In this document: one piece after another, positions 8,101 through 39,791 of the stretch
Layout of the letters: every line of letters starts with the position of its first letter
How positions within the stretch are numbered: the stretch's first letter is position 1
Assembly (NCBI GenBank): GCA_021200565.1
Contig: JAJQGJ010000021.1
Coordinates: 1 to 45,992, forward strand
DNA length: 45,992 nucleotides
DNA from: Oscillospiraceae bacterium
GTDB taxonomy: Bacteria; Bacillota; Clostridia; Oscillospirales; Ruminococcaceae
Direction of reading: 5' to 3'
Notes under the pieces: model-generated
Seen by the model: only the letters and a program-made list of their open reading frames with translations
What the model was told of the DNA's origin: nothing
Database searches by the model: none
Program-made: the position numbers and the translations under genes

Positions 8101-8409
8101 TCATTTCATGTTGATTTCAACGTCCTTGACGTTCAGCTTGAGACCCTTTGATGCCGCAAGAGAGTTTAAAGCTGCCGGGATGGCTTCTTTATATTTTTCG
8201 AGCGCCATAATGACAAGCTTGTCCTTCACGCTGTCGGGGATGAGGTCAAGAAGAGCCTTTATTGTGCTTTCGTCCGGCTCATTCAGGTTTCTGACAATCA
8301 TCGCCCATGCTGCCGTTTCCTTCTCAGCTTTGCTTTTGATAATTGGAAATGCCACTTTTATGATATTGGCATAATCAATATCGTCGATCTTCGCTTTAAT
8401 TTCTACCAT
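8101..8409 (-). CDS. Small protein of unknown function
   Basis: A 102-residue protein that I do not recognise. It looks all-helical and soluble, with many Lys/Asp/Glu residues and no Cys, signal peptide or membrane segment. The start is ATG 8409 behind AGGTGAT; a GTG three codons upstream overlaps that ribosome binding site. It is the last gene of the minus-strand cluster, 49 nt after the HD-Pnk gene, and is followed by the terminator at 8068-8095. No function can be assigned. Confidence 0.7.
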   Translation of the reverse strand: MVEIKAKIDDIDYANIIKVAFPIIKSKAEKETAAWAMIVRNLNEPDESTIKALLDLIPDSVKDKLVIMALEKYKEAIPAALNSLAASKGLKLNVKDVEINMK

Positions 8410-8458
8410 TTTTATCACCTACAAATTTATTTTTCTGCCGTCCGCAATGCGTACAGCT

Positions 8459-9631
8459 TTATACACAGTGCCACTCAACCGCTCTTGCCTCCGTTCTTGT
8501 GGGCAGTTCGAGATTTCTCATCATGTGCTCTATCTCGATTGTCGGGACTGCATCGGAACGGTTTTCGTTTCTAGAAAGATTTGTGTCCCAGGGCGTCTCT
8601 AAGAAGACGATTCGGGTTCTTGCGTGATACTGCTCAAAGAGCGAAAGCTGGTTGTGCCTTAGCATGGCTGAGAGATTCGTCGCATTCCAGACAAATGGCT
8701 GCTTACTGCGAAGATATGCTCTCGCACGTTCTCTTGCCTCCTGGACGACCTGTCCCTGCTTTTCGGTAGGAGAGATATTCATCTCTTTTCTTATATCGTC
8801 AAGCGAGATCATCGGCATGTCTGGATAATGCTCCTTGATCCAGGTGTCCTTGCCGGTTCCGGGGAGACCGGACATGAGTATCACCTCGCCCCAGGTGTCG
8901 TCATAGACATCCTGCCCTTTCCAGACATTTTTGCCGGAAAGATAGGCATATTCTGCTGCATCAGACACAAATACTCCCGGCTTATCGAAAATTCCCTCAT
9001 CCTTCGACATCATGAAACAGAGCTCCATTGAATCGAGGGATTCTCCTATCGTGTCGCAGATCCTGCCCTTGAGGTCAGCTCTGACCAGAATTGACAGAAG
9101 CTGGAGCGAGAAACCGGGAACAAGCTCGCCTTGTGCGGCTATCTGATAGAGCCTCAGCTCCGGGTTCTTTTGCTCCGCTATGTGAACCGGTACCGAATGG
9201 TAGCGAATCAGGTTGCAGATGCACTCACGGGCTTCCTGCTCTTCTTTGGTTCCAGCGAGTGAAAAGTCCTTCCATAGGATTTCTCTCGCCATTTTCGAGC
9301 CGACTATCGTGTGGCTCGGGGATTTCCAGATGCCATCCTCCATAACCGTACAAGAAATCTTGCCAAAATCATGCATAAGCGCAGCTATGAACAGTATCTC
9401 TCGCTTTTCTTTCGGAAGCTCACGGAACTCAGAGTCCTCTGCAAGCTCCTCACAGACCATTTTTGTATGGATGAGGACATTTCCCTCGGCATGCCATTCG
9501 GGGTTCTGCTCGGTTTTTGAAAGCCTTTCTAAATAGGGTGCAATAGGAGTGCTGAAAAGAGCATCCCAGTTGATATTCCAGTCTGGCGGCTTGGGGACAA
9601 CGCCACATAGTGTTTTCCAGTTGTCGTTCAT
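8459..9631 (-). CDS. HD-Pnk: HD phosphoesterase fused to 5'-polynucleotide kinase
   Basis: A 390-residue two-domain RNA end-healing enzyme. The N-terminal HD domain carries the His residues around 47-55 and ALMHDFGK (His87-Asp88). The C-terminal P-loop kinase has GLPGTGKDT (255-263) and SLDDIR (Asp278/Asp279). The same order is known in bacterial HD-Pnk (Runella slithyformis), where the HD part removes 2',3'-cyclic phosphate or 2'-phosphate and the kinase phosphorylates 5'-OH ends. These are the ends left by many RNA-cutting toxins. The start is ATG 9631 behind AGAGG; an upstream in-frame start would overlap the ligase gene. It lies 10 nt after an RNA ligase gene, which could seal the healed ends. 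Confidence 0.85.
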   Translation of the reverse strand: MNDNWKTLCGVVPKPPDWNINWDALFSTPIAPYLERLSKTEQNPEWHAEGNVLIHTKMVCEELAEDSEFRELPKEKREILFIAALMHDFGKISCTVMEDGIWKSPSHTIVGSKMAREILWKDFSLAGTKEEQEARECICNLIRYHSVPVHIAEQKNPELRLYQIAAQGELVPGFSLQLLSILVRADLKGRICDTIGESLDSMELCFMMSKDEGIFDKPGVFVSDAAEYAYLSGKNVWKGQDVYDDTWGEVILMSGLPGTGKDTWIKEHYPDMPMISLDDIRKEMNISPTEKQGQVVQEARERARAYLRSKQPFVWNATNLSAMLRHNQLSLFEQYHARTRIVFLETPWDTNLSRNENRSDAVPTIEIEHMMRNLELPTRTEARAVEWHCV

Positions 9632-9641
9632 GGGAATTCCT

Positions 9642-10433
9642 CTATTCAAACAAGCTCTCAAGCGGACAGGACAGAAGGTTCGGGACAATCGGTCTGTTTA
9701 TCCACTGAGTGTCGGGAACTGCAAGGTTCTGCAAAAATGACCGACGGACATACTTGAGCCTGCTCGCAACCTGACCGCCTTCCTCAACCTTGATATAAAG
9801 TCCCTCCATAAGATCGCTCTGGTCAGTAGAGCGGCAGATTTCATCAGGGTCAAGCCCTTGCCGGAGAGCCTCAGCTTTCAGGTTTTCGATGTGATCGCTA
9901 CTTATGTAGTTTGATTTGCCGAGGAGTTTCAGTAAATCATCTTTACTGCTGAATTCGCCAGTCTTCAGAACTGGAACCGACTTTATCGGGAGGTTTTCAG
10001 TTATCATGCGTCTTGAATCGGTGTCGAGATAGATTCCCTTTTCACGGTCAAAAATGTCGAACTCCATGAAATAGTGCGGAAGCATGTCATAAAAGATACT
10101 ATGCTTGGCATACATCCACTCGCCGTACATTATATACCGGCTGCCAAGAACGCTTCGGAACTTATTTTCATGCACGCTTGCCCACTGCTTCATCAGATTA
10201 TAGTGGCGTTCACGATAGCCGCCTGTCAGATAGTGACCACGGCTCTGCAGAAGCATCTCGCCATTATCGTCGAACGAGATTGCAGAATTTGCGCCGTCAA
10301 TCTTCTCCTCGACAACAAGGTGTCTTCCCTCAATATCCGAATACGGAATCTGGGACAAATCCTCATCCCCCGGCTGCAAACGTGAGCCCTCAAGATGAGG
10401 GGTTCTGGGGTATTTTTTTATTTCAAATGGCAT
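9642..10433 (-). CDS. RNA ligase (covalent nucleotidyltransferase family)
   Basis: A 263-residue ATP-dependent RNA ligase of the T4 Rnl/RNA_ligase type, nearly only the nucleotidyltransferase core. Motif I is EEKIDGANS with the AMP-accepting Lys44. Motif III is YGEW (103-106), followed by a MEFDIFD stretch. Motif IV is EGLYIKVE (210-217) and motif V is RLKYVR (225-230). It lacks a large specificity domain, so partners may supply RNA recognition. Ribosome binding site AAGGAG; directly upstream of the HD-Pnk gene and downstream of a NADAR-macrodomain gene. I infer an RNA break repair pair with HD-Pnk. Confidence 0.85.
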   Translation of the reverse strand: MPFEIKKYPRTPHLEGSRLQPGDEDLSQIPYSDIEGRHLVVEEKIDGANSAISFDDNGEMLLQSRGHYLTGGYRERHYNLMKQWASVHENKFRSVLGSRYIMYGEWMYAKHSIFYDMLPHYFMEFDIFDREKGIYLDTDSRRMITENLPIKSVPVLKTGEFSSKDDLLKLLGKSNYISSDHIENLKAEALRQGLDPDEICRSTDQSDLMEGLYIKVEEGGQVASRLKYVRRSFLQNLAVPDTQWINRPIVPNLLSCPLESLFE

Positions 10434-10463
10434 ATTGGTTTTCTCCTTGTTTTATTTGTTATT

Positions 10464-11450
10464 TCAGGTCAACGCTTCGCAAAAGCATTTATAGACATAC
10501 GGGTCTGCGCAGGTGAAGGCGACTTCGATGGCGTAATCTGGGTTCTCGTTCTTCCAGTTCACGACTGCCTTAGCTGCGATCCTTGTACCCTCTTCATTCG
10601 GGAAGCATTCCTTGGCGCAGCCGATTGCAGGGATAGCGATGCTGTGGATGCCCTTTTCTTTGGCTAGGTCGAGAATGTTCCTCAGGGTCAGCTCAAGAAG
10701 AAAGCTGTCTCCCGTCCCGCCATAATGCGGAGAAACTGTATGTATGACATATCTGGCGGCGAGATTATACCCATTAGTTATCTTTGCCTCAGTTATCCTG
10801 CAACCGCCAAGTGTCTGGCACTCCTTAATAAGCTCTTCTCCTGCTTCTCTATGGATAGCATCGAAAACACTCCAGCCGGCAAAAAGCGTTTCATCCGCTT
10901 CATTTACAACACATTCGAATTTGGTTCGGCTTATATCCTGCAATCTCACAGAAATGCCATTATCGAAAGACTTACAGCGGATTTCGTTCGTTTCCTCACC
11001 CTCGGGAACTCCGTTTTCCTGAAGCTCATTTCTGATCTTCATAAGGATTTTTCCGAGGTTGTTCTGCCCTTCACCTGTTGTGAGATCTACTCCCCAGATG
11101 ACATCATTCCAGGTGTTGCCCTCAACGATTTCCGAATCACCTGTCTCGACCAGATGCTTTGCAAGATATGGGTTCTGTGTGAACTTTGCCCGCACAATTC
11201 TCTCCATCACGGAAAACTTCACCTTTTCCCAATCTGCTCTCAGAGGAATCTGACTCCCCTGCTTCTTGGCTTCACCCGCAGAAAGCTCTGAAAACCTCAT
11301 ACGCTCCGCAATATCCAGGCTCTTATAAGCCTGATACGCCGCTTCAGAGCTGAAATAAGTGCTCCCATCAAGCGTCACATATGCAGGATAAAAGTTGCTT
11401 AAAAACCTATACCGACCCTGGAATTCAGCTATCTTATCGACTTTATTCAT
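10464..11450 (-). CDS. NADAR-macrodomain fusion, ADP-ribose processing
   Basis: A 328-residue fusion of two ADP-ribose hydrolase-type domains. Residues about 1-145 are a NADAR (YbiA-like) domain with GRYRFLSNFYP, SSEAAYQAYKS and GNTWNDVIWG. Residues about 165-325 are a macrodomain with CVVNEADETLFAG (a changed form of the usual N-A-A-N segment) and AIPAIGCAKECFP. NADAR domains are known to remove ADP-ribose from guanine bases (for example DarG1 antitoxins); macrodomains bind or hydrolyse ADP-ribose. No ADP-ribosyltransferase toxin is next to it. Its start overlaps the preceding stop (ATGA). It probably reverses ADP-ribosylation of nucleic acid or protein. Confidence 0.88.
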   Translation of the reverse strand: MNKVDKIAEFQGRYRFLSNFYPAYVTLDGSTYFSSEAAYQAYKSLDIAERMRFSELSAGEAKKQGSQIPLRADWEKVKFSVMERIVRAKFTQNPYLAKHLVETGDSEIVEGNTWNDVIWGVDLTTGEGQNNLGKILMKIRNELQENGVPEGEETNEIRCKSFDNGISVRLQDISRTKFECVVNEADETLFAGWSVFDAIHREAGEELIKECQTLGGCRITEAKITNGYNLAARYVIHTVSPHYGGTGDSFLLELTLRNILDLAKEKGIHSIAIPAIGCAKECFPNEEGTRIAAKAVVNWKNENPDYAIEVAFTCADPYVYKCFCEALT

Positions 11451-12028
11451 TTTATTGCCCTTTCTTCTGATTTCACCTCAAGAAAGCCAAACCACAATTC
11501 TGGTCCTTGGCGGTCACTCTTACTTTTCTCGGGATCCGGTATCTGAAAATACTGATCCAGATAAGAGTACCTATAGTATTCCTCATATCCGAATCCATCC
11601 TCATCAGGTCCGTCGAAGCCAAGATACCTGCCAATTTCAATATAGCGACCTTTGCTGAGCCCGGCTATATTATACAATTCACCAGGTTCAAATGCAAAAA
11701 GCCCGATCTCATTCAAGTCTCTTCCGGAATATTTCCCTGTCCGCCAATTATCACGCTTCCCGGGAATAAAGTTCTCATAAGGGAATGTCATATCTTCCAG
11801 AAAATCAACGCCCTGCCACCTTCCCTCACTGAAAATCTCCATCACCCGCTCCTGAGCTTGCTTGTTCCCATAAATTGCAGCTCTCAGAAGCCACATATTT
11901 GCGCCTAAGCGATATATGTCGTGCTTTGCAGAAGTAGCGGATTTTCTGAGAAGCTCAGAAAGTTCAAGCATTGCATCGGCATCTCCCGCACCACATCTTT
12001 CCGCCAATATTTCTAATTCTGTTCTCAT
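11447..12028 (-). CDS. Sel1/TPR-like repeat protein
   Basis: A 193-residue soluble protein. The N-terminal half (about 8-72) has helical repeats of Sel1 type: CGAGDADAMLELSELLR and WLLRAAIYGNKQAQERVMEIF. The C-terminal half is rich in Tyr, Gly and acidic residues (FDGPDEDGFGYEEYYRYSYL) and resembles nothing I know. Such repeats usually mediate protein contacts. Its stop overlaps the start of the NADAR-macrodomain gene by ATGA, indicating translational coupling and suggesting a shared task. Confidence 0.65.
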   Translation of the reverse strand: MRTELEILAERCGAGDADAMLELSELLRKSATSAKHDIYRLGANMWLLRAAIYGNKQAQERVMEIFSEGRWQGVDFLEDMTFPYENFIPGKRDNWRTGKYSGRDLNEIGLFAFEPGELYNIAGLSKGRYIEIGRYLGFDGPDEDGFGYEEYYRYSYLDQYFQIPDPEKSKSDRQGPELWFGFLEVKSEERAIK

Positions 12029-12054
12029 ATTTTTCCTCCTTGCAATAGCAGATG

Positions 12055-13074
12055 CTAAAACAACCGCTTTCTGAATGTGATTTTCAAGCCTTTACGTCTC
12101 ATAGATTCAAGAGGATAATTATTGCCCGACGCTTTGAGTATAGACATAAATCTCAGCCTTGACCCTCCAAACACTATTTCCTTCAGTGAATCTTGGGTTA
12201 CTAAACCCCTGCCGATATGTTCAACGCTTTCCGGAATCACTATTCTTTCAAGGGAGTCACAGCCACTAAACGCTAAATCCCCAATCCAGGTTGCGCCTTC
12301 TTTGAGGGTTACAGTTTTCAGGGATTTGCAACCTGAAAATGCAAGGTTTTCAATACGCTTGACGCCTCCGAGGAAAACAACTTCTTTCAAAGACTCGCAT
12401 CCACAAAACGCATCATTCCCAATTATTTCTACGCTTCTCGGAATAACAACTCTTTTCAGCGATTTACAATTCCAGAATGCGCCGTCACAAATTTCCTCAA
12501 CTCCCATCGGAAAAGTTATGTTTTCTAATGATGAATAGTCAGAAAACGCATTTCTCCGTATCGACCTTGCTTTGCCCGTCATGACTACGTCTGTAATATG
12601 TGAGAGGAGTGGTCTGCCTGCCCAACCAGAATTTATCACATTCACCGAAGCTGTTATGCTCTTCAAAGAGCTACAACCATCAAACGTACGTAATCCAATT
12701 TCGTATATGCTATCTGGCAGCTTGACGCTTTCCATGTGCTCATTTTCAAATGCCAAATCATCGATTGACGTTATTCCCTCTTCAATCACAAGCCTTCGGT
12801 ATTTGCCATCATATGGAACAGTTACAAAGTAGTATTCATCGAGATATTCGGAATAAAACTGTTTGATATGATACTCATTACCGTCGTCTTCCTCATCTTC
12901 ATCGTCTTCATCAACATAAATATCTTCATATCTTCGACTCCATTCGACTTTTCCGCTTCCGCCGATTATTAGAGTGTCGCCGTCAACTCGCCAATAGCAG
13001 CCTTTGCCGCAGTAGTCGCTGTCGGAGGGATCCTTGCTGCCATACCAAATGGTGCCGTTTACGTCGTATTCCAT
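12055..13074 (-). CDS. BspA-type leucine-rich repeat protein, cytoplasmic
   Basis: A 339-residue protein. The N-terminal YCGKGCYWRVDGDTLIIGGSG is the cap motif found before BspA-like (LRR_5) repeats. About eight repeats follow from residue 95, for example SLKRVVIPRSVEIIGNDAFCG, each giving one strand-turn unit of about 23 residues. An acidic stretch of Asp/Glu lies at about 52-66. There is no signal peptide, unlike most BspA-like proteins, which are surface proteins; I therefore place it in the cytoplasm as a binding partner. Ribosome binding site AAGGAG and ATG 13074. Confidence 0.85.
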   Translation of the reverse strand: MEYDVNGTIWYGSKDPSDSDYCGKGCYWRVDGDTLIIGGSGKVEWSRRYEDIYVDEDDEDEEDDGNEYHIKQFYSEYLDEYYFVTVPYDGKYRRLVIEEGITSIDDLAFENEHMESVKLPDSIYEIGLRTFDGCSSLKSITASVNVINSGWAGRPLLSHITDVVMTGKARSIRRNAFSDYSSLENITFPMGVEEICDGAFWNCKSLKRVVIPRSVEIIGNDAFCGCESLKEVVFLGGVKRIENLAFSGCKSLKTVTLKEGATWIGDLAFSGCDSLERIVIPESVEHIGRGLVTQDSLKEIVFGGSRLRFMSILKASGNNYPLESMRRKGLKITFRKRLF

Positions 13075-13084
13075 TTTTATCTCC

Positions 13085-13789
13085 TTACTTTACTGTTGCT
13101 ATCATGATAATGTGCCCATCGACGCCGTCGAAGCTGACTTTTTTGCAGCCGGCACCGATGAAATAGTCTGTTAAGCTCTCCTTTGTGAAGAGGTGGATGT
13201 GCTCGGGGTTGTCGTCAGGCTTGGATGGGACGGAGAGAACTATATACTTCTTCGCCATTTTTATGGCTGAACTGACCGCCGCTTCGGTATTGGGAATGTG
13301 CTCGAGGACTTCGAGCATTGTGACAATGTCGACGCTGTCTTCTTCTAACGGCTGCTCGCAGATGTTGGCTTCAATGGCATTCAGGTTTTCGATTCCTCCA
13401 AGGGAAATCTCATTAAGGAATTCAACCCGATGAGGCAGGATGTCGGCTGAGGTGACCTTGACCCACGGAAACTCGGTCATGAACGGCATCAGGAACACTC
13501 CCCTGCCGGAGCCGACGTCAAGAAGGCTTTCAAAGCTGACGCTTTTTAAGAATCCCATGACTTTTCTGATTCTTGGCATATCGCTGTGGGTGGTCTTGAA
13601 GCGGTATAGCTTGAGCTCTGCCTGTCGACCTGACTCTATAATCTCGGAAAATTCGGCATCGCTGAGGCTGTCAAGCGGCTCTGAAAGAAGTGGGTCCGGA
13701 AGCCCCGGAAAGCCTTTCTTCAAAGCATGTCCACGCACATAGGCTGCTGCCAGACGGTTGTAGTAACGATTATTGTCCATGGGATTCAC
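13085..13789 (-). CDS. Class I SAM-dependent methyltransferase
   Basis: A 234-residue methyltransferase. Motif I is LLDVGSGRGVFL (about 92-103); DIVTMLEVLEHIPN (about 155-168) is the motif IV region with the E-H-I-P signature of the Methyltransf_11/23 group; YIVLSVPSKPDD and EHIHLF follow. The substrate is unknown. Its position among RNA-repair genes recalls bacterial Hen1, but the zinc-binding residues of Hen1 are not evident, so I do not call it that. The leader upstream (13790-13870) holds an unusual permuted inverted repeat. Confidence 0.82.
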   Translation of the reverse strand: MNPMDNNRYYNRLAAAYVRGHALKKGFPGLPDPLLSEPLDSLSDAEFSEIIESGRQAELKLYRFKTTHSDMPRIRKVMGFLKSVSFESLLDVGSGRGVFLMPFMTEFPWVKVTSADILPHRVEFLNEISLGGIENLNAIEANICEQPLEEDSVDIVTMLEVLEHIPNTEAAVSSAIKMAKKYIVLSVPSKPDDNPEHIHLFTKESLTDYFIGAGCKKVSFDGVDGHIIMIATVK

Positions 13790-13808
13790 CTTTCCGGATT
13801 TTGATAAT

Positions 13809-13852
13809 GTGTCAGTGCCCCGGGCATCGGCTTATAGACTGACACCCGGGGC
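13809..13852 (-). repeat. Permuted inverted repeat (switch-like RNA element)
   Basis: Four blocks in the order a-b-a'-b'. GTGTCAGT (13809-13816) is complementary to ACTGACAC (13838-13845), and GCCCCGG (13817-13823) to CCGGGGC (13846-13852). The two helices interlock: only one can form easily, or both as a tight pseudoknot. The element lies in the 81-nt gap between the YbjN and methyltransferase genes. No T tract follows on either strand. Confidence 0.75.
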
Positions 13853-13870
13853 GAAAAGTGTTTGGCTTTA

Positions 13871-14344
13871 TCAGCGTACGTTTGACTCTGCAGCCTTTAC
13901 ATCCTCTTCAGGATTGCCGTAGCCCATCATGTTCTTGACAAGACCGTCGCCGTAGCGCTGCATCATCAGAACAGGGATGTCAACAATCAGCTCGATGTCT
14001 CCAAGCGATGGATCGTCACGTGCCCAGAGAACGTCTCTGTATCTGATTTCGCCGTCGCTGTAGTCGAATTCGAAGCCGCCAGTGACCAGATTGTAGTTGG
14101 CACGGGTCAGATACTCAACGACATTTGCATATGTTTCCGGCTTTGCCTTGAGAGGCGCTACTGCGAAGCACTGAGCACGATTGTCCCTGATACTGATATA
14201 TACAGTTACATTGCTCAGATTGCCTTTGACGTTCATTCTGTACTCGATGATGTCAACCTCTTCCTTCTCGGTGACACGGTACTTGAGTCCCTGCGAATCG
14301 AGATACTCTCTTACTCTTTGTGTGAAACGTGCTTTTGTTGCCAT
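13871..14344 (-). CDS. YbjN-domain protein
   Basis: A 157-residue soluble protein of the YbjN/sensory-transduction-regulator fold, which resembles the type III secretion chaperone fold and usually binds other proteins. Visible support is the alternating strand pattern VTVYISIRDNRAQCFAVAPL, the LTRANYNLVTGGFEFDYSDGEIRYRDVLW core (about 88-118) and the closing helix. Ribosome binding site AGGAGG. It lies 21 nt after the EcsC gene. Function in the cluster unknown. Confidence 0.7.
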   Translation of the reverse strand: MATKARFTQRVREYLDSQGLKYRVTEKEEVDIIEYRMNVKGNLSNVTVYISIRDNRAQCFAVAPLKAKPETYANVVEYLTRANYNLVTGGFEFDYSDGEIRYRDVLWARDDPSLGDIELIVDIPVLMMQRYGDGLVKNMMGYGNPEEDVKAAESNVR

Positions 14345-14365
14345 GATAATATCCTCCTAAATATT

Positions 14366-15181
14366 TTATTGAGATTGCTCCTGCGAAAGAAGGAGCAGTC
14401 TTCTTTTACGGTATTTGAGTTCTGCGTATCTCATGACCTTGTTGTAGTAAACAGGGTTCATGGAGCCGCCTATGATGCCGACAACCGGAAATCCTTGGAT
14501 GAATTTGAGAAGCAGCATGTCGATTGCTATTGCATCGGATGCTTTTTCTATTTCAAGCTTGATGTCAGCTGGAGTTCGTGGAGTGCTGACTTTATCGGAA
14601 ATCATTTCGTCGATTTCTTTGTTTCCTTTCGACCATTCCTCGCCTTTAAGCATCGAAACCTCCATCAGCTTTAAGATGAAGTAACGTTCCTCATCCGACT
14701 GATAGTCGAAGCCGTAGTTGAGGGCGGTTTCATAAACTCCACGGAGCAACACTCCGACAAACACCACGATGTCCGGTATTCCTACACCAAATGCGCCTAA
14801 GAGAACTCCCTCGGCAGTTGTGAATGCGACGCTTTTGAGATTGTCGCTTCCGGCACTGCCTAACAGCTCTTTCAGAGCCTTGCGATTGGCTTTTGTTCTG
14901 AATGCGTATTCCCTGACCAGGTAATCGTCTGATTTTCCTTCCTGGTTATAGGTTTTCTCGATAACTATCGATCCCTTGTCGAATATCAGCCCAAAAGCCT
15001 TTCCGAATGCCAGCTTTAGGCTTTTATACACCTTATCGGGAACCTTTGACTCGAGCTGGCTTCTGAGCCTCACGGGCTTGCTCTCAAGCTTTCTTTTCTC
15101 AAGAGCTTCCTCCCGCTTCCTTAACGTGTTCAGTTCTTTGTCGATAGCTTTCTGATAGTTTCTTCGTTTTAATTCTGCCAC
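14366..15181 (-). CDS. EcsC-family protein
   Basis: A 271-residue protein. The core carries the EcsC-family features: AFGVGIPDIVVFVGVLLRGVYETALNYGFD (about 142-171), an adjacent SDEERYFILKLMEVSML helix, then FIQGFPVVGIIGGSMNP and a basic helix KVMRYAELKYRKRRLL at the C-terminus. Two hydrophobic segments suggest membrane contact. The role of the family is poorly known. The start is GTG 15181 behind GGAGAG. It sits between the C39-like/partner modules and the YbjN gene. Confidence 0.8.
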   Translation of the reverse strand: MAELKRRNYQKAIDKELNTLRKREEALEKRKLESKPVRLRSQLESKVPDKVYKSLKLAFGKAFGLIFDKGSIVIEKTYNQEGKSDDYLVREYAFRTKANRKALKELLGSAGSDNLKSVAFTTAEGVLLGAFGVGIPDIVVFVGVLLRGVYETALNYGFDYQSDEERYFILKLMEVSMLKGEEWSKGNKEIDEMISDKVSTPRTPADIKLEIEKASDAIAIDMLLLKFIQGFPVVGIIGGSMNPVYYNKVMRYAELKYRKRRLLLLSQEQSQ

Positions 15182-15210
15182 TTTAATCTCTCCAACCTGT
15201 CCGCTACAGC

Positions 15211-15954: not shown

Positions 15955-15982
15955 ATTGTCAGCCTCCTTGGTTCAAGCTTTT

Positions 15983-16504
15983 TTACACTTCCTCAAGCCA
16001 CTCAAAGAATGTATTTCCCAAAATATCATAGAATTCCTTGAGTTCAGGACGGAGCGCATCATTCATGCACTGCTTCAGTTCTTTCAGACTTGAGACTTGC
16101 TCTTCAGTCAACTCGCTCACGGGAGCAAAGAAGAAGTCACGGCAATTCACATATGCTTCCTTGAACTTCTTTCCTGCTTCCATTCTCTGCTGCAAAGGAG
16201 TTTTGACAGCCGGAATCTTCATATCAAGCGGATACTTCCCGGTGTCCATGAAGTCACAGTTTGAGCAGTACTCAAAGCGTACAACTGAACCGCTCTGGCT
16301 GTCAACGGTGAGCCAGGCAAAAGGTCTTGCCATTTTCCCGTCAAGGACATTGGAAGTCGTATAAAGAAATGCACTCTCCACCAGTCTGTCATTAAGCATT
16401 GACGGCATCCATGCACCAAGCATAGCGTTTTCGGTAAAAGGGAAAACTCCGGCTTTTCTGATTCTCTGGGACATAAGATCTAATTCCATATATTTGTTGC
16501 TCAT
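15983..16504 (-). CDS. C39-like partner protein, copy 1
   Basis: A 173-residue soluble protein of unknown function, a clear paralogue of the one at 17504. Shared blocks include RLVESAFLY, RPFAWLTVDS / RPYAWLTVDS, VRFEYC, the DT.KYP.DM segment, and SELTEEQV near the C-terminus. Each copy follows a C39-like gene, so I infer that the two products work together, perhaps as peptidase plus inhibitor, adaptor or substrate. No catalytic motif, membrane segment or signal peptide is visible. Good ribosome binding site (GAGAGGAG). Confidence 0.75.
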   Translation of the reverse strand: MSNKYMELDLMSQRIRKAGVFPFTENAMLGAWMPSMLNDRLVESAFLYTTSNVLDGKMARPFAWLTVDSQSGSVVRFEYCSNCDFMDTGKYPLDMKIPAVKTPLQQRMEAGKKFKEAYVNCRDFFFAPVSELTEEQVSSLKELKQCMNDALRPELKEFYDILGNTFFEWLEEV

Positions 16505-16530
16505 TTTAAAAGCTCCTCTCTAAGCTATAT

Positions 16531-17490: not shown

Positions 17491-17503
17491 TGTTTTGTCC
17501 TCC

Positions 17504-18031: not shown

Positions 18032-18045
18032 AATCTAACCTCCTG

Positions 18046-31233: not shown

Positions 31234-31238
31234 AAAAA

Positions 31239-33179: not shown

Positions 33180-33192
33180 ATTCTCAGCCTCC

Positions 33193-35322
33193 TCAGTTTT
33201 CGGTCTTGTCTTCGAAATAGGTCATCATGACAATGTCAAATGCTCTGTCGACAATCTCCTCGGAACGCTTTTCGAAGCCCTCGGTCAACTTGCTGACATT
33301 AACAGATAAGCTTTCTATTGTCTTGCTTTTAATTTTATCATCTTTCATGGTTTTCGGCAAGTCTCTTGCAACCTTCTGACGGGTGTTTTTGTCTCTCTTT
33401 TTGTCAAGATCTTCGTCTTTTATAAACAGGTCGGAAAATGCAGCCAAAATCAAACCAATCAGGAATCCCCAGCCGGGAATTATAGCGGCACTGGCAATAA
33501 CGATAGCCGCTTTCACGATATATCCCATCGTCTTTCTCATCAGCGGCGACATATCGATATTCTTCACGAATGAAGCTGTATCGATAACGCCGTCCTTGAA
33601 GATGGCATCGGATGATGCTTCCTTGAGTATATCCTTAGGGAGCATCAGGGCTGCTGCGATCTCTTCGGAATAGAGGATCTTAATCTGCTTGTTGATAGCT
33701 TTCTCATAAACTCCGGAAAGCTCGTTTTTGAGTTCACTAATTTTTCTGTCGCAGATGTCAGAAAGCGTCTTCTGGAAAGCTTTGTCTTCAAGCTTAGCCT
33801 GAATGCCGGTCTGAAGAGTGCGGGCTGTTTCGGTGTCATTATTCTTGTTTGCCCACTCGATGGCGGATTCCTGAACCTTCTTTGTTATCTCTTCATAAAT
33901 CGCATCGATGATTCCGGTTCTGAACTTTTTGACCGATTCGGTGAGCTGCGTTTTGACTTCGGCTTTTGCTGCCATGCGGCATGCAGGAACCTTCTCATCT
34001 GTCGCTGCAACCCAGGCAAGTCCCGTGGATACAGAGTGTGCGGGATTATTGTCACGCAATATCCTGACCCCCGGGAAAACTTCCTGGCAAAGCGGCTCAA
34101 TGAAGTTCATCTTTGATGCGCCGCCGGTCAGAACTATCGTCTCAAGAGGTGCTTTGCGGCTGTCTATCGAGTTCTTTGCCTCCTGGAAGAAGCTGCGGCA
34201 GGAGCCTTCCCACGAATCTGTGATAAACTGCTTGTTCTTAAGGTTGCCGGTTGCTACTTCAATCTTGTCTTCTGAGACTACCTGTGTCATGAGCTCGCTG
34301 CCTACTCTGAGAATCGCATCAACGCTCTCACCGGATGAACGGTCTTCAAAGCTGCAGATCATCGCATGAGCCTTTGTTCCATATTCGCCGTTGTAGTAGG
34401 TTTCCTTTGCGTCACGGAGCTCGTCTTCAACCTTGACAATGGATTCTTCATCAGGCGTCAAGGACGTGTCCTCCGCCATCGCTTTTTTCAGAGCACGAAT
34501 CATCATGTTGCGCTCGATGTTGTAGGCTCCGAGAGTCCAGCTGAACTCGATCATAGTCTTGCCGAGCTGCATGTATGTAAAGTCTGCTGTTGAGGAGCCG
34601 AAGTCAAACACTGCGACTCCGTTCACTGCGGAAACTCTTCCAGACTTATCTTCGCTTCCGAAATTAGAATACATAGCGGCTCTCGATTCGGGAACTATCT
34701 TGACCGACTGCACTCCGGTTGCATTCTTGACCAGATTGGCGTAGCGGTTTCTCATCTGCTCATCTGTCCAAGCTTCGGTTGTCGGACAGCCGATGAGAAG
34801 CTCGAGATTCGGTCTGTCCTGAGGAGTAAGCTCTCCGCTGTAGGTGAGGATATTTTCAAGCAATGCGTGGAAGTAGCATGCCATCGCCATACCGTGAGTG
34901 AAGCCGGTTTCTTCTACAAGAAGTGAGTCGCTGCAAAGCTCATCGAAGTGCTGAGGAGACACCTTGAAATACATGAACCGTTCGCCGTCCTCGACATAGT
35001 AAGGCAGATGGTTTCCTATATTTATGGTTCCGAGTTCCTTCAACTGGTTATAGCTTGGCTTATGGTTGTCCCGGAGCATACGCATCTGTCTGGACGAAAG
35101 CACCATCTGTGTCAGAACTATCTGCTCTCTGTCAGAGGATGCCGCAAGCCTGCGGATCTCATACTTCTCACTCGGCTTCTGACCGATATGCGGTGCGGCA
35201 TTCGGATATGCCTGCTTGAGACGCTCCACGGTTGGAGTCTGAGCACTCTGCACGGTTGTGTGCAAAAGATAGCACGCCGCCGTTTCACAGTGTCCGAAAT
35301 CAATTCCTACAATCTTACTCAT
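33193..35322 (-). CDS. Hsp70/actin-fold ATPase with C-terminal membrane segment
   Basis: A 709-residue protein. The N-terminal 430 residues form an Hsp70/actin-type nucleotide-binding domain: phosphate-1 IVGIDFGHCETAA (4-16), phosphate-2 VAVFDFGSSTADF (about 235-247) and adenosine motif IVLTGGASKM (about 395-405). There is no DnaK substrate-binding domain. Instead a helical region leads to a hydrophobic hairpin at about 610-640 (AAIVIASAAIIPGWGFLIG) and a charged helical tail, a layout like a dynamin stalk and paddle. Ribosome binding site AGGAGG. I infer an ATP-switched, membrane-associated scaffold. Confidence 0.88.
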   Translation of the reverse strand: MSKIVGIDFGHCETAACYLLHTTVQSAQTPTVERLKQAYPNAAPHIGQKPSEKYEIRRLAASSDREQIVLTQMVLSSRQMRMLRDNHKPSYNQLKELGTINIGNHLPYYVEDGERFMYFKVSPQHFDELCSDSLLVEETGFTHGMAMACYFHALLENILTYSGELTPQDRPNLELLIGCPTTEAWTDEQMRNRYANLVKNATGVQSVKIVPESRAAMYSNFGSEDKSGRVSAVNGVAVFDFGSSTADFTYMQLGKTMIEFSWTLGAYNIERNMMIRALKKAMAEDTSLTPDEESIVKVEDELRDAKETYYNGEYGTKAHAMICSFEDRSSGESVDAILRVGSELMTQVVSEDKIEVATGNLKNKQFITDSWEGSCRSFFQEAKNSIDSRKAPLETIVLTGGASKMNFIEPLCQEVFPGVRILRDNNPAHSVSTGLAWVAATDEKVPACRMAAKAEVKTQLTESVKKFRTGIIDAIYEEITKKVQESAIEWANKNNDTETARTLQTGIQAKLEDKAFQKTLSDICDRKISELKNELSGVYEKAINKQIKILYSEEIAAALMLPKDILKEASSDAIFKDGVIDTASFVKNIDMSPLMRKTMGYIVKAAIVIASAAIIPGWGFLIGLILAAFSDLFIKDEDLDKKRDKNTRQKVARDLPKTMKDDKIKSKTIESLSVNVSKLTEGFEKRSEEIVDRAFDIVMMTYFEDKTEN

Positions 35323-35368
35323 ATTATCCTCCTGTATTTTAAAAGTCCTTTTTTCAGATCATTCAAGC

Positions 35369-36340
35369 TTAACTACGCTTATAGGTAGCGAGAAGCTTTT
35401 CCCTTATTTCAGTCATTTCCCTTTGATAGAATTCCTTAATTTCTATGGAATTCATGCCGCTGAGTGGGCTGTTGTCCACATCGGGATCGAATTTTTCTGT
35501 CCACTCGGGCGTAATCAGCTCGCAAAGCGTTGCGTAGAGGCTGCTGCCGTTTTCGATGTCGCTTGAATAACGCTGGCTGCGCTCCTCGAGAGAGCCTTCA
35601 AGAAGCGAGAGGTTTTCCTTTGCCTGCTCCAATGATTTGCCGTCAAGAGAGGTTTTCCACTCGCTGCACTCGAGCATCAGCTTGCGGACAGAGCTAATGT
35701 CAGACGAGATGATTTTGTCCTCCGGCTGGTATTTCTCCGCATATTGCTCGAATCCACCCAGGATGCCAGGGATCATGCTTATGAGCCCGATGTCCTGGCA
35801 CTCTTCAAGAAGAAATGCACATACAAGGTCCGTCACGGAAACGGGTGCGTCGCTTGCTGATTCATACTCTGAAAGTGCTTCCCACTCGGTTTTCAGCTTT
35901 TTTGTGAAGCTTCCGAGGAAGAATATATAGTTGTTATAGCCCTTTAAAGCTACTATTTCCTGGTCGTCTGTCGGATTGATTCCATTCACAAACTCGTCAA
36001 GCCGAAGTAAATAATCTAAGATTTTGTCCTTCTGATAGTACATTCTGAGGACGTACTCAGAACGCTCGAAGGCTTTTCTTTCGCCTCTGCAGGCGAGCCA
36101 CTTCTCATAACAGGGAGTGAGCTCATCGGCGAATTTCATCCTTCTCTGGGTGTTGGGATTTTTAAAGCTTCTCCTTGAGCCTCCGATTTCTTCGATGAAA
36201 AAATTCATAATCCGCAGCTCTTTGGCACAGCTTTCCCATTTCAGGGTCGGAATGTTGCTTTCACTGGAGGTCCTTCCACTTACATAACTCATCAGGTCGC
36301 TTCTTTCTGCTCTTTTTGTCGGAAAACCGTCTGATTTCAT
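35369..36340 (-). CDS. Unknown helical protein
   Basis: A 323-residue soluble protein without a family that I recognise. It is almost all helical and charged, with landmarks such as KNPNTQRRMKFADELTPCYEKW and ERSQRYSSDIENGSSLYATL, and a Lys/Glu-rich C-terminal helix. The start is ATG 36340 behind GGAGGGTGAT, which overlaps the stop of the upstream gene; a longer in-frame opening at 36436 lies inside that gene. It is followed by the Hsp70-like gene and may be its partner. Confidence 0.65.
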   Translation of the reverse strand: MKSDGFPTKRAERSDLMSYVSGRTSSESNIPTLKWESCAKELRIMNFFIEEIGGSRRSFKNPNTQRRMKFADELTPCYEKWLACRGERKAFERSEYVLRMYYQKDKILDYLLRLDEFVNGINPTDDQEIVALKGYNNYIFFLGSFTKKLKTEWEALSEYESASDAPVSVTDLVCAFLLEECQDIGLISMIPGILGGFEQYAEKYQPEDKIISSDISSVRKLMLECSEWKTSLDGKSLEQAKENLSLLEGSLEERSQRYSSDIENGSSLYATLCELITPEWTEKFDPDVDNSPLSGMNSIEIKEFYQREMTEIREKLLATYKRS

Positions 36341-36348
36341 AAAATATA

Positions 36349-37632
36349 TCACCCTCCGAAATGAATACTGCATCTTTGTGCGCTTCCATAGTGCCGGATT
36401 TCGCTGTTGCCGGAAAGGCTTACAGCCACCTCGCATGAATCCTTGGTGACCTTACTATTCACTGGCGCGCTTCGTGGGCTCAGGGACACAATACGACTTT
36501 TAGCTGCCTTGGGATCCTTCTCGGTGACAACCGAGCCTTCCTCCGTGAGCAGCTCATAACCATTTTCTCCTATACGTACCTCGACAACCGGTATCATGAC
36601 CATGTCGAGCTTAAGCTTTGACATATAATCCTTCAGTGCCCGATAGTAGGAAGCGTTGACTCTTCCATAGGACACTCCGATGAAGCCGTTTTCCCCGGAG
36701 CCTGCCGCAAAGCAGGAGAAGTCCTCATTGAGCGTCCACTTGTCGGCATCTGGCGAGAGTACGGAAATTTCGCTCTTTGCGTAATTCTCACGGATCAGGG
36801 CAAGGTCGTCGCTGATGCTGACGGATGGCAGGAACTTTATTATCCTTCCGGCTGTCACGTTGCAATAACGGTATTCCTTTTCGGAAAGATCGAAACACTG
36901 AACCAGGCTGCCGTCTGCATCGCTATAGAGCTCAAGCTTCACCGACTCATAGCGGTTGCCGCCTGAACGGGCTTCGATGCGCATTGTGGCGATTTTATCC
37001 TGCTCCATGAGAGTGTCGGACGAATAGTACCAGAAGCGATAGGGCTTTTCACGTGTCTTTAAGTAGAGAGTGCCGCCGCTTCCGGATATAAGCCGGATTT
37101 CCTCCTCTGTTTCTTCTTCACTTTGCTCCTGATGCTCAAATGAAACCTCAAGTGCGTCCATCTCGGATATTTCGCAGATTGCGAGAAGAGAAAGCATCGT
37201 CTTTATGTCGTTCTCTGAATCTGAGAAATGTCCTGATTCTTTTATGTGGGCGAGCTTTGAGCCAAGCTTTAAAGAGCTGTACTCGGCAGCTATCATTGCC
37301 GTATTCTTTTCAAATGCAAGCTCGCTGTCCTTGAACTTCTCCAACGCCGATGTGGCGTCGGAGAAGCCCGAAAGTTCATCAGCTGTGATGAGCAGGTCGA
37401 GCCAGAACTGCTTGTCGAGATATTTGAGAGTTACTTTCCCATCGACATCCTCAGCAGTCTGCTCATCCAAATCTTCCGGCTTATGATAAAGAGACGGAAG
37501 TGGCAAACAATGCACTTTTGCGAACTCTATAAATGTACTGCGTTCTTTGTATATCTCCCACACGGAAAAGCGTCTTCTCAGGTCGATGAAGTTAAGAACG
37601 CCTTCGCCGTTTAGCTTAAAAATCTTTACCAT
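36349..37632 (-). CDS. Unknown multidomain protein
   Basis: A 427-residue soluble protein that I do not recognise. The first 160 residues look helical. From about 185 the pattern changes to strands (GGTLYLKTREKPYRFWYYSS, SVKLELYSDADGSLVQCFDL), suggesting a beta-sandwich or similar domain. An acidic Glu-rich linker (EEETEEE) separates the halves. It lies 33 nt after the membrane-protein gene and 8 nt before the next gene. Possible structural or sensor role; no catalytic motif seen. Confidence 0.62.
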   Translation of the reverse strand: MVKIFKLNGEGVLNFIDLRRRFSVWEIYKERSTFIEFAKVHCLPLPSLYHKPEDLDEQTAEDVDGKVTLKYLDKQFWLDLLITADELSGFSDATSALEKFKDSELAFEKNTAMIAAEYSSLKLGSKLAHIKESGHFSDSENDIKTMLSLLAICEISEMDALEVSFEHQEQSEEETEEEIRLISGSGGTLYLKTREKPYRFWYYSSDTLMEQDKIATMRIEARSGGNRYESVKLELYSDADGSLVQCFDLSEKEYRYCNVTAGRIIKFLPSVSISDDLALIRENYAKSEISVLSPDADKWTLNEDFSCFAAGSGENGFIGVSYGRVNASYYRALKDYMSKLKLDMVMIPVVEVRIGENGYELLTEEGSVVTEKDPKAAKSRIVSLSPRSAPVNSKVTKDSCEVAVSLSGNSEIRHYGSAQRCSIHFGG

Positions 37633-37665
37633 AAGCCTCTCCGATTCTAAGTATTAGTTGTTGCC

Positions 37666-38859
37666 TCAGGCAAGCACTGCTTCGCCAGGAGTCTCAACTG
37701 TGGCATCTTCGTCAACTTCTTCGCTGCCTACGATAATGACATCCTCGTCGGTCTCAGCGGTCTTCTGCTTCCTCGAATGCTTCTTTGCATACTCGATAGC
37801 CGGAAGGATAATGTGGTCACGTCCAAAGGTGACAATTACGCCAAGGGCTAAACCAACGTTCTTAAGACCAGCCTTTATGGCGTTAAATGCCTTGCCGTTG
37901 ACCTTTTCCCAGCCGTTATACGCTACTGAAATCAGCTTCCACAAGCCGTAGAAGAAGACTGAACATACAACCCAATCAAAGAGCGGCGGGCACATTAATC
38001 CACAGATTCCTGCGAGCAATATGTAAACAGGGAATCCGACAGCGAAAGTCAGGAACGCCATAGCAGTTCCGATAACAACGATTCCAAGAGCACGGAAGAG
38101 CTCTGCAGCCAAACGCTCAGTTATGCTGCCCTTGCCGACTGCATCGAGGATGCGTGCTTCCTCAACCTGTGCGCAGACCATTGTCGCAACCTGCTCGGGA
38201 GTCATATCTGCGGCATCCTTGCCGTATTCGCCGCTCTTGAGCTTGGTGTAAACCAGCATCGACATGATTCCACGGAACTCGATTTCCTTGGAGCCAAGGC
38301 TGATAAGAAGCTCTGTTACTTCGTCTGTATCTTCTGCGCCGGCGACTTCGTCGGTGGAGTTCATCATTCCAACAAGAAGTATGTTGGAATTGAGCATGGC
38401 TTCCTTTGCCTCCGCCATAAGCTGGAGCTCATATTCCTGGGTTGCTTCTGCTTCGGAAACTGAAAGAGCCTCAACCTGGCTGACGATTTCGTTCTTCTTC
38501 TCTTCTGTGATTGTTCCCTCACCGAGTGCCAATGTGATAGCACTGAGAGTTGCGGTGAACCTGAGCCAGTAGGTGCAGCGTTCAGCAGGAGTCTTGTCGG
38601 TGTTGGCCTTCTTCTGGAAGCTCTCGATGAAGCCGTCAACATTGTTCTTTGCATGCTCATAGCTGCTGTCGAATTCCTTGATGCTTTCAAGAATTGCATC
38701 CGCCATAACTTCGCCCTGCTTGATGGTCTTATCTTCAAGATTCTTGACATAGATTTCTGCCATTACGTCTCTGGTGGACTTGCCCTCCGAAAGGCTGTCT
38801 AAGATTTCCTGAGTCTCGTTCATGATTTTCTTCTGCTGATCTTTTGTTAACTTTGTCAT
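37666..38859 (-). CDS. Membrane protein with helical cytoplasmic domain
   Basis: A 397-residue protein that I do not recognise. A long acidic helical domain (1-250) is followed by two or three membrane helices at about 255-320 (FRALGIVVIGTAMAFLTFAVGFPVYILLAGICGL, WVVCSVFFYGLWKLI). A basic stretch and an acidic C-terminal tail (AETDEDVIIVGSEEVDEDA) follow. The start is ATG 38859 behind GGAGG. It may be the membrane anchor of the system. Its promoter region carries nested palindromes (38950-39000). Confidence 0.7.
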   Translation of the reverse strand: MTKLTKDQQKKIMNETQEILDSLSEGKSTRDVMAEIYVKNLEDKTIKQGEVMADAILESIKEFDSSYEHAKNNVDGFIESFQKKANTDKTPAERCTYWLRFTATLSAITLALGEGTITEEKKNEIVSQVEALSVSEAEATQEYELQLMAEAKEAMLNSNILLVGMMNSTDEVAGAEDTDEVTELLISLGSKEIEFRGIMSMLVYTKLKSGEYGKDAADMTPEQVATMVCAQVEEARILDAVGKGSITERLAAELFRALGIVVIGTAMAFLTFAVGFPVYILLAGICGLMCPPLFDWVVCSVFFYGLWKLISVAYNGWEKVNGKAFNAIKAGLKNVGLALGVIVTFGRDHIILPAIEYAKKHSRKQKTAETDEDVIIVGSEEVDEDATVETPGEAVLA

Positions 38860-38931
38860 TTTTAATAACCTCCAAGTTCTATTGTCTGAAAAGTGTTTTG
38901 TGATTTGTGTTCTGTACATTTCCTTTGTACA

Positions 38932-38959
38932 ATTCTATTTTACCTCGTATTTTTCAGAA
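38932..38959 (-). promoter_or_regulatory. Possible promoter of the membrane-protein gene
   Basis: Minus-strand TTCTGA (38959-38954), 16-nt spacer, TAGAAT (38937-38932). The -35 is poor, as expected for an activated or repressed promoter, and it is overlapped by the palindrome cluster at 38950-39000. Just downstream, TGTACA occurs twice (38913-38918 and 38926-38931). Confidence 0.5.
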
Positions 38960-39000
38960 TTGTTCTGTCGGCGACAGAATTTTTGAAAAAATCTGAAAAA
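38950..39000 (-). promoter_or_regulatory. Nested palindromic operator-like element
   Basis: Inner perfect inverted repeat TTCTGTCG-G-CGACAGAA (38963-38979) inside outer arms TTTTTCAGA (38950-38958) and TCTGAAAAA (38992-39000). It lies between the XRE-like gene and the next cluster gene, over a putative -35, so it may bind the XRE-like dimer. It could also fold as an RNA hairpin, but no T tract follows. Confidence 0.6.
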
Positions 39001-39017
39001 TTATTTGAAGCGCTTCC

Positions 39018-39575
39018 CTATTCCTTCATGTCATAGATATTCTCAAATTGGCGTTTTCCGTTCTTGCCGTACTCTTCGAGAACCTCATACACGTCATAGA
39101 TGTCATAACACTTGATGTCGATGAGAGCAAGGATTACAAGATCTCTCGGGTCGGAGGGATTAAGGCTGTTCGAGCCCATCATCATAAGACTATTGGCTTC
39201 GTTTTCCGACAGTCTCAGTGCAATCACGAGCTTCAATAGCGTTTCCTTCTTTGGAACGATGCTTCCGTAGCGAATGCTGGTCCAGGTTGATTTATCGATG
39301 AACGCATCTCTGCAAAAGGCTGCACCGTTGACCTCGCCGTTCTTTTTCATATACTTGTCGTTATGCAGTCTTCGGATAAATATAACGATAAGCGAGTAAA
39401 GAGGGCTGTCGTCGCCTTCTCCTGGCTGCGGCATCTGATTTATTCGGTTTTCAACTGCCAGCGCAACATCTGAGCTGACCTTCTGCAGGGTTGCATCTTC
39501 TATATGCTGCTTGCTGCGACAGATACGCCTGTTTATGCTTTCCTCTACTTCTACTAACAGCTTACTGTCTACCAT
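39018..39575 (-). CDS. XRE-like helix-turn-helix regulator
   Basis: A 185-residue protein. The central and C-terminal part (FIDKSTWTSIRYGSIVPKKETLLKLVIALRLSENEANSLM, about 105-145) has the helix spacing of an XRE-type DNA-binding domain, followed by a short helical tail. The N-terminal 90 residues are helical and may dimerise or sense. It is the first gene of the large cluster, behind a strong promoter and a structured leader with an intrinsic-terminator-like hairpin, so its own expression may be set by attenuation. AGGAGG (39586-39591) precedes ATG 39575. Confidence 0.7.
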   Translation of the reverse strand: MVDSKLLVEVEESINRRICRSKQHIEDATLQKVSSDVALAVENRINQMPQPGEGDDSPLYSLIVIFIRRLHNDKYMKKNGEVNGAAFCRDAFIDKSTWTSIRYGSIVPKKETLLKLVIALRLSENEANSLMMMGSNSLNPSDPRDLVILALIDIKCYDIYDVYEVLEEYGKNGKRQFENIYDMKE

Positions 39576-39602
39576 GACAGATAATCCTCCTTACTTAGTA
39601 TT

Positions 39603-39757
39603 AAAAAGCCTCCCCGGGTTTTGCACCAGGGAGGCGGGTTAATCAAAATTCTCCGCAGCACAAAGACAGTGACGGAGTTAAAATATAGTTCTGCCGGAGG
39701 CAGAACCCCCCACACAAAGCAGCAACAGACCAAAAGTCAAAATCCTTGCCACTTTAA
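39603..39757 (-). ncRNA. Structured leader or small RNA upstream of the XRE-like gene
   Basis: From the promoter at 39763-39791 the minus transcript first forms hairpin GTTCTGCC-TCC-GGCAGAAC (39706-39688), then a CTCCG/CGGAG stem, then GCCTCCC...GGGAGGC (39635-39608) followed by TTTTT (39607-39603). The last is a good intrinsic terminator placed 12 nt before the ribosome binding site of the XRE-like gene. It is either a separate RNA of about 155 nt or an attenuator. A 24-codon GTG-initiated frame (39752-39678) without a ribosome binding site lies inside. I could not match it to a known RNA family. Confidence 0.6.
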
Positions 39758-39762
39758 TGGAT

Positions 39763-39791
39763 ATGATACCATAAATTTTAAGGGGTGTCAA
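39763..39791 (-). promoter_or_regulatory. Strong sigma-A promoter at the head of the cluster
   Basis: Minus-strand TTGACA (39791-39786), 17-nt spacer, TATCAT (39768-39763) preceded by TGG. The -35 begins 7 nt after the end of the DUF2752-like gene. Confidence 0.88.

Follow-up and report, generated by a model that had tools for sequence, protein, structure and literature searches.

The window examined here, the complete 45,992-base contig JAJQGJ010000021.1 of the 2.18-Mb genome of an Oscillospiraceae bacterium (assembly GCA_021200565.1), carries an island of approximately 31 kb in which dynamin-like GTPases and a HerA-like ATPase lie among putative proteases, chaperone-like ATPases and RNA-repair genes. 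The original prediction, made from the sequence alone, had described a tightly packed, one-strand cluster of 30 genes; the present calls, produced with a simple longest-ORF script, bear this out, with 30 open reading frames (ORFs), all on the minus strand between positions 8101 and 39575, of which 24 of the 29 intervening gaps measure 40 bp or less and 9 of the 29 junctions overlap. The genes are numbered from g01 (at 8101) to g30 (at 39018), and judged from the strand, transcription would proceed from g30 towards g01. Pfam agrees with the domain calls made earlier (dynamin, AAA, HerA/DUF87, EcsC, LytTR, NADAR with Macro, RNA ligase, and HD with a P-loop kinase) and further recognizes a BspA-type leucine-rich repeat (LRR) protein and a YbjN family member.

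The central part of the island begins with two dynamin-like GTPases, g22 (28272..30092; Pfam Dynamin_N, 7.7e-17) and g20 (24648..26654; Dynamin_N, 1.9e-24), which flank g21 (26681..28186), a dynamin-like protein that lacks the P-loop and thereby upholds its earlier label of pseudo-GTPase. These are followed by a LytTR regulator (g19, 23840..24586; Pfam LytTR, 2.5e-14), by g18 (23293..23850) and g17 (22895..23293), by a small protein immediately preceding HerA (g16, 22260..22895; matched at 1e-3 in 10 of 80 HerA loci), and by the HerA/FtsK-like ATPase itself (g15, 18905..22279; Pfam DUF87, 9e-13), which displays ATPase motifs in the HerA alignment and bears a serine-rich and glycine-rich hydrophobic insert. 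Beyond HerA lie three papain/C39-like proteins interspersed with two small partners, the members of each kind being paralogues: g14 (18046..18891) and g10 (15211..15954, the most conserved paralogue) contain a Cys-His-Asp triad, while in g12 (16531..17490), situated between them, all three residues are replaced by Asn (alignment columns 75, 184 and 207 for g14 and g12); the partners g13 (17504..18031, 175 residues) and g11 (15983..16504) share 47% identity. The combination of a papain-like fold with the triad identifies papain-like cysteine proteases, and toxins are found among the fold matches of these proteins; the more specific C39 label has weak Pfam backing (0.038 for g14) and is firm in the predicted fold of g10. 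A further putative protease, the HExxH protein g24 (30562..31233), is a candidate metallopeptidase by its sequence motif (HELRHAV) and is accompanied by a 158-residue partner, g23 (30089..30565). Pfam scans returned no family match for g13, g11 or g23, and g13 gave weak fold matches only.

Comparison across the HerA family makes it very probable that these genes belong to a conserved assembly with a HerA-like ATPase and dynamin GTPases at its core, and that in its sister branch the position after HerA is mostly a slot for a swappable nuclease toxin followed by an immunity-type gene. A gene-neighbourhood search had been proposed with the pseudo-GTPase, the Hsp70-like protein and a 397-residue membrane protein as anchors; it was conducted with HerA as the main anchor, the yield from the Hsp70-like and AAA genes being too small, and showed that most of the genes co-occur. 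A scan of species genomes with the HerA alignment yielded at least 576 relatives at 1e-3, the best 80 of which were retained, and these span Bacillota, Pseudomonadota, Spirochaetota, Fusobacteriota and Bacteroidota. Among these best 80, dynamin genes lie near HerA in 75 of 77 assessable loci (those that either extend 4.5 kb or more upstream or show a dynamin match, so that short loci enter only with a match): within eight genes of HerA, two or more dynamins are present in 69 loci, one in 6 and none in 2, and in one of the latter pair a truncated gene looks, by eye, like the start of the large dynamin.

Of 72 scanned genes that directly follow HerA, most of them from that sister branch (clade A, described further below), about 57 encode nucleases of polymorphic-toxin type, a figure that combines 50 genes recognized as WHH, LHH or GH-E type by a crude motif recount without overlap and 7 Endonuclea_NS_2 matches assumed to fall among the 22 rows that the recount did not catch. 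The 72 first genes derive from 66 of the 68 clade-A loci (L159 and L162 being absent), two clade-B loci and four plasmids, with the second ORF used for L170 and an ORF approximately 0.9 kb away used for L205. Their Pfam matches comprise Colicin-DNase (35), WHH (35), LHH (13) and Endonuclea_NS_2 (7), with rarer matches to GH-E (2), Col-Pyo_DNase (2) and a papain-fold Gln_amidase (1), and single matches to peptidase M15, SprT-like, NERD and, marginally, PGK. The second genes (67, from 62 clade-A loci, one clade-B locus and four plasmids) match SMI1_KNR4 (30), SUKH_6 (30), SUKH_5 (26), DUF6985 (15, counted as immunity-type by place only), SUFU (2), PoNi (1) and a few others. By their family assignments, these first and second genes look typical of polymorphic toxins paired with immunity proteins; the WHH, LHH and GH-E domains are described as largely confined to polymorphic toxin systems in the sections of Zhang et al. 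(2012, PMC3482391) that treat them. Near the payload N-terminus, 20 of the 68 first genes encode an LDKPI-like motif, compared with none of 70 second genes, 6 of 667 other genes and an average of 0.6 in shuffles, the motif having been picked from the same data; as a lead, it might represent a loading signal.

Plasmids carry the same arrangement, with a HerA relative downstream of two dynamin genes in Lactococcus, Escherichia coli and Treponema; no dynamin was called at the plasmid HerA loci of Exiguobacterium and Ruminococcus albus. An HNH-type nuclease follows HerA on the plasmids of Lactococcus, E. coli, Treponema and Exiguobacterium, and the next gene is annotated as SMI1/KNR4 in the latter three and as hypothetical in Lactococcus. 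On the R. albus plasmid pRUMAL01, the gene after the HerA relative encodes a protein of 515 residues that contains hydrophobic, glycine-rich stretches and may be a different payload type. Regulators of the WYL type are annotated beside the module in Lactococcus (where PADLOC also assigns WYL) and Treponema, and a crude pattern finds a WYL candidate in 17 of 58 clade-A loci. Two short, unannotated contigs from phage collections carry a HerA relative, and the genome under study itself contains a second, more distant one (32% identity) on another contig (G000:C2:12562-13770).

In a HerA tree of 86 proteins, built by a quick method in which the window sits on a long branch and one row (L135) is incomplete, the window and 12 further loci form a single clade (clade B; 13 of 86 rows, support 100) apart from 73 toxin-type rows. 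Lachnoclostridium sp. An196 is among the carriers of a clade-B core, and Lactococcus cremoris with plasmid pB26B among those of a clade-A module. At 1e-8, all but one of the 12 clade-B loci have a homologue of g20, which none of the 68 clade-A loci has, and 8 of the 12 have one of g22; the small partners g11 and g13 are matched in 4 of 12 and 0 of 68, and g24 and g25 each also match one clade-A locus. Homologues of the LytTR regulator (8 of 12 versus 0 of 68) and of the C39-like proteins (7 of 12 versus 0 of 68) are similarly distributed, contrasts whose Fisher values are partly circular because clade B was initially marked by matches to window genes and was later found to be one HerA clade. 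The P-loop is missing from both g21 and its homologue in genome G801, and is kept in the presumed counterparts of seven other clade-B loci, which were assigned by place or weak match. The slot after HerA in clade B is often filled by papain-like proteins or by an HExxH protein, with small partners, and the window contains both kinds. Homologues of g24 and g23 occupy that slot in three loci (L193, L146 and L164), two of them in clade B and one in the sister branch; by this placement the pair is likely a second payload type, and an initial grouping of the two genes with the adjacent Hsp70/AAA module was weakened accordingly.

That module (g30 to g25) begins with a 185-residue putative regulator (g30, 39018..39575), which had been called XRE-like; no Pfam match was obtained at 0.1 and that label is unproven, while its place is conserved, homologues in genomes G806 (49%) and G808 (50%) heading the same gene run. 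It is followed by g29 (37666..38919; 417 residues, or 397 from an inner start), which has C-terminal hydrophobic segments and homologues near Hsp70/AAA genes in G801 (54%), G806 (35%) and G808 (25%); by g28 (36349..37632; 427 residues; G801 64%, G806 30%, G808 22%); and by g27 (35369..36436; 355 residues; G801 52%, G806 26%). The next gene, g26 (33193..35322), encodes a putative Hsp70/actin-like ATPase with a C-terminal extension; the Hsp70 label is weak by hidden Markov model (DnaK model 5.7e-5, with a weak LeoBC model match as well); in alignment, its relatives keep the glycine- and aspartate-rich ATPase motifs. The AAA ATPase g25 (31239..33179; Pfam AAA, 1.3e-25), which we take to be Ycf46-like, has homologues adjoining the Hsp70-like gene in G801 (82%), G806 (52%) and G808 (40%).

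The Hsp70-like gene is concentrated in clade B: 4 of the 12 genomes of that clade have it, the 49 clade-A genomes searched (50 of 68 loci were submitted) all lack it, and a sample of 390 other genomes of the class gave a single match, figures obtained with a single protein query at 1e-3 for clade B and with a profile that includes clade-B sequences at 1e-12 elsewhere. That the profile is able to detect relatives is shown by its recovery, in the class sample, of the genome under study and of G394, the sole other match there, which contains a HerA relative of low identity with in-frame stops and no other window gene on the contig; G056, a weak match to the Hsp70-like protein within the family, also carries a HerA relative. 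As a lone anchor the Hsp70-like gene proved too rare, with one other match among 196 genomes of the family and one other among 290 of the class; no relative was confirmed in viral contigs, and the one plasmid match, in Calothrix, has neighbours that are unrelated by annotation. The AAA gene failed as a lone anchor in the opposite manner, since 298 of 299 genomes matched (probably through FtsH-like ATPases) and the eight best relatives share no other window gene nearby. Relatives of g25 were also observed in a gene run that appears phage-like by eye (L088) and near clade-A HerA genes, on a plasmid (L114) and in a genome (L145).

When all 30 proteins were compared with the best 80 HerA loci and with extended contigs, the earlier view of one linked set largely held, with most genes recurring together. 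In G801 (Lachnospiraceae metagenome-assembled genome (MAG) MO.3_6), one contig carries g29-g28-g27-g26-g25-g24-g23-g22-g21 and a second carries g20-g19-g18-g17-g16-g15, both in window order and at 51-82% identity (71% for g24, 59% for g18 and 54% for g17); the contig ends suggest that the two adjoin. In G806 (Oscillospiraceae MAG BRZ_KQ bin155), 20 of the 30 genes have homologues on a single contig of 55 kb, rearranged as g19, g20, g16, HerA, g22 and two g10-like genes, then g30, g28, g27, g26, g25, g24 (45%), g23 and g29, and finally g09, g07, g03, g02, g06 and g04, with genes for ADP-ribosylglycohydrolase, RtcB, BtpA, DUF1810 and a LigT-type phosphoesterase interspersed. G808 is likewise rearranged, with g30-g28-(an unmatched gene)-g25-g26-g24-g23-g29 on one contig (g24 at 35%) and g19, g20, g16, HerA, g22, g14, g13 and g10 on another; g23 thus adjoins g24 in all three genomes. 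In G809, the Hsp70-like/AAA pair and the HerA locus lie on different contigs. The chassis (g22 to g15), the payload genes (g14 to g10 and probably g24 and g23) and the Hsp70/AAA module (g30 to g25) therefore tend to travel together, and the ADP-ribose and RNA-repair set (g09 to g02) is more loosely attached.

The island (8061..39797) is bordered on one side by an ArsC-like gene that ends at 8060 and on the other by a DUF2752 gene, which has its end at 39798. Neighbouring DNA was taken from 14 other genomes of the genus, and in 9 of the 9 in which both flanks were readable these two genes are directly adjacent; none of the 30 island proteins matched the fetched DNA of those nine at 1e-4. The remaining five were uninformative (one contig was too short and four lacked flanking synteny, one of the latter giving a weak generic AAA match to g25). 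Either the island was inserted here or the relatives have lost it. By eye, the flank alignment shows no att-like repeat at the island's ends, no repeat search having been made, and neither RNA families (at gathering score) nor tRNAs were found in the window. Sporulation genes (encoding a SipL-domain protein and SpoIVA) lie on one flank, SipL is present in 30 of 31 genus genomes including the one under study, and the host genome is spore-former-like. In several congeners (L008-L017) the N-terminal part of the SipL-domain match is interrupted by stops or split, with the remainder intact, and the start of the window's SipL ORF may be variable or mis-called.

The assembly shares parts with several known systems. 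Polymorphic toxin systems, as far as described in the relevant sections of PMC3482391, employ the same toxin (WHH, LHH, NS_2 and GH-E) and immunity (SUKH and SUFU) families as the sister loci, similarly swappable on a constant chassis; a dynamin and HerA-like chassis is not among the trafficking modes that those sections describe, and the window itself differs in having papain-like and HExxH proteins as payloads, whose partners belong to no recognized immunity family. Type VII secretion, in the portions of the same paper that treat it, likewise couples an FtsK/HerA-type pump to toxins of the LHH/WHH type and to SUKH immunity; WXG and LXG families were absent from the Pfam matches of the window genes and of the first and second genes, no dedicated search having been made. 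Conflict systems that unite GTPase genes and Hsp70 in one locus are also alike (Kaur et al. 2020, PMC7159879), although their partners, in the passages describing them, are tubulin, GrpE, GAP1-N2 or DO-GTPases, the comparison being one of description and not of GTPase kinship; in the text of that paper, the word 'Dynamin' does not occur and HerA appears only in a reference.

The dynamin genes also resemble PADLOC models for LeoA and LeoBC through weak matches (E-values from approximately 5e-6 to 3e-14, in a library without cut-offs), although the large E. coli dynamin matched neither model; compared with the LeoA/LeoBC system, HerA, the payload slot and the regulators are additional here. In PADLOC, g15 reaches the generic HerA families and mad8. 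Anti-phage HerA systems and mad8 (PADLOC, NCBIfam) have in common with g15 a HerA-superfamily ATPase, and the likeness is confined to that region (residues about 580-960), the serine-rich insert and the dynamin and payload neighbours being different. The identification of g15 as a plain anti-phage HerA or 'serine-rich' HerA was rejected, its scores against NF042943 (47.7 bits, cut-off 800) and NF033849 (1.1e-21, 76 bits, cut-off 650) falling below the curated thresholds. The original prediction had named no described system with the full set, and no description of a dynamin-HerA payload system was found in the open-access full-text literature, in which broad topics were covered in part. Any novelty would lie in the chassis, polymorphic toxins as such being of an already known kind.

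Because a HerA-dynamin core is common to toxin/immunity loci, the likely function changes from that first envisaged, namely one co-regulated system for sensing or remodelling membranes and for mending RNA damaged in an attack: the shared chassis points to a motor-plus-membrane machine, and the swappable payload to conflict. In the mechanism that we propose, HerA, with its serine-rich, hydrophobic insert, would act as a pump anchored in the membrane, binding the payload and unfolding or translocating it, and the dynamins would reshape or fuse membrane and thereby bring about payload release, with the partner protein protecting the producer. The LytTR protein (or, in the sister branch, WYL-type regulators) would hold the system off until needed, the Hsp70-like/AAA module might assist payload folding or complex turnover, and the ADP-ribose and RNA-repair genes might curb collateral damage. 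Release of the payload towards competing bacteria appears the most likely end point, with self-killing on infection nearly as likely. As a whole mechanism including such release, a modular dynamin-HerA conflict system with a swappable payload is the account that we tentatively favour, at somewhat less than an even chance; a touch more tentative is the broader proposition that it represents an undescribed class of antagonism or defence machine, in which dynamins and a HerA motor form an export or release apparatus for interchangeable payloads, joined in some genomes by the Hsp70-like/AAA module.

Delivery to competitors and defence against invaders stand close, because the defence-type features (the WYL regulators, the similarity to LeoA and HerA, and RNA repair) are equally real. 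An intracellular anti-phage or anti-plasmid role, in which dynamins sense or remodel membrane damaged by infection, HerA engages invader DNA or frees a toxin kept in check, the infected cell is killed or stalled by the payload, and the RNA-repair and ADP-ribose genes rescue it, is thus a serious competitor, if somewhat less plausible than delivery. It draws on the PADLOC defence model matches (LeoA, LeoBC, HerA and mad8), on the WYL-type regulators counted above, on the fit of the NADAR, RtcB, RNA ligase, DUF1810 and ADP-ribosylglycohydrolase neighbours to conflict islands, and on the phage resistance that DynA confers in Bacillus subtilis, as stated in the part of PMC8844932 concerned; yet the payloads belong to families of secreted polymorphic toxins with adjacent immunity-type genes, several different payloads are borne on one chassis, and the pseudo-protease and Hsp70 module would be left unexplained. 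Chance insertion of independent defence or stress units side by side at a hotspot is unlikely: it would accommodate the absence of the island from all informative congeners, the loosely linked RNA-repair end, the altered gene order in G806 and G808, and the separation of the Hsp70/AAA module from HerA on different contigs in G808 and G809 (and in G801, where they possibly adjoin), but not the recurrence of the sets across genera at 22-82% identity, in window-order runs of 6 and 9 genes, nor the concentration of the Hsp70-like gene in clade-B genomes. Less probable still is a role in the life of a mobile element, be it DNA transfer, entry exclusion or competition between plasmids, exerted through a HerA/CedD-like DNA pump, for although clade-A modules reside on plasmids typed as conjugative in Lactococcus and E. 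coli and g15 matches the CedD model at 7e-22, that match lies far under the cut-off, no relaxase, integrase or conjugation gene was recognized among the scanned window proteins, and toxin- and immunity-type genes occupy the slot after HerA.

If the favoured account of a dynamin-HerA conflict system is true, membrane-fission and membrane-fusion GTPases would be added to the known machinery for deploying polymorphic toxins in bacteria, and a testable role would open up for many of the dynamins and orphan HerA ATPases found there, with a broad reach given the five phyla represented among the best 80 of at least 576 HerA relatives. The window would then represent a protease branch of the same chassis, with its own Hsp70/AAA module.

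The remaining genes lie downstream of the payload region, and those for RNA repair are the loosest part of the set. They comprise an EcsC family protein (g09, 14366..15181; Pfam 3.9e-34; G806 46%, G811 34%); a YbjN family protein (g08, 13871..14344; Pfam 2.2e-9), which had no match in the 80 HerA loci or the extended contigs; a methyltransferase by Pfam (g07, 13085..13789; G806 58%, G803 50%); the BspA-type LRR protein (g06, 12055..13074; Pfam LRR_5, 1.4e-61), with LRR matches in G803, G806, G808 and L164; and g05 (11447..12028), with a homologue in G808 (32%). The NADAR and Macro protein (g04, 10464..11450) has homologues in G811 (49% over 320 residues) and, over about 140 residues, in G803 (52%) and G806 (56%). 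The RNA ligase (g03, 9642..10433; Pfam 1.6e-36) adjoins g02 (8459..9688), a protein with HD phosphohydrolase and P-loop kinase domains (Pfam HD and AAA_33) for which the label 'HD-Pnk type' is taken over from the original prediction; the ligase is matched in G806 at 64%, again adjoining g02, and g02 itself in G806 (50%) and G803 (46%). Homologues of the last gene, g01 (8101..8418; 105 residues), are found downstream of C39 and partner genes in four loci (L137, L138, L141 and L144). Within the fetched flanks, g02, g03 and g04 are represented in 2 of 12 clade-B loci versus 0 of 68 clade-A loci (p 0.02), and additionally on the extended G806 contig. Genes for an HD_4 hydrolase, a calcineurin-type phosphoesterase, a vWA protein, BtpA, DUF1810, ADP-ribosylglycohydrolase and RtcB adjoin the clade-B loci L146 and L142 and that of the G806 contig (L221, L222), as labelled by Pfam for L146 and G806 and by eye for L142, and possibly constitute a shared stress cassette.

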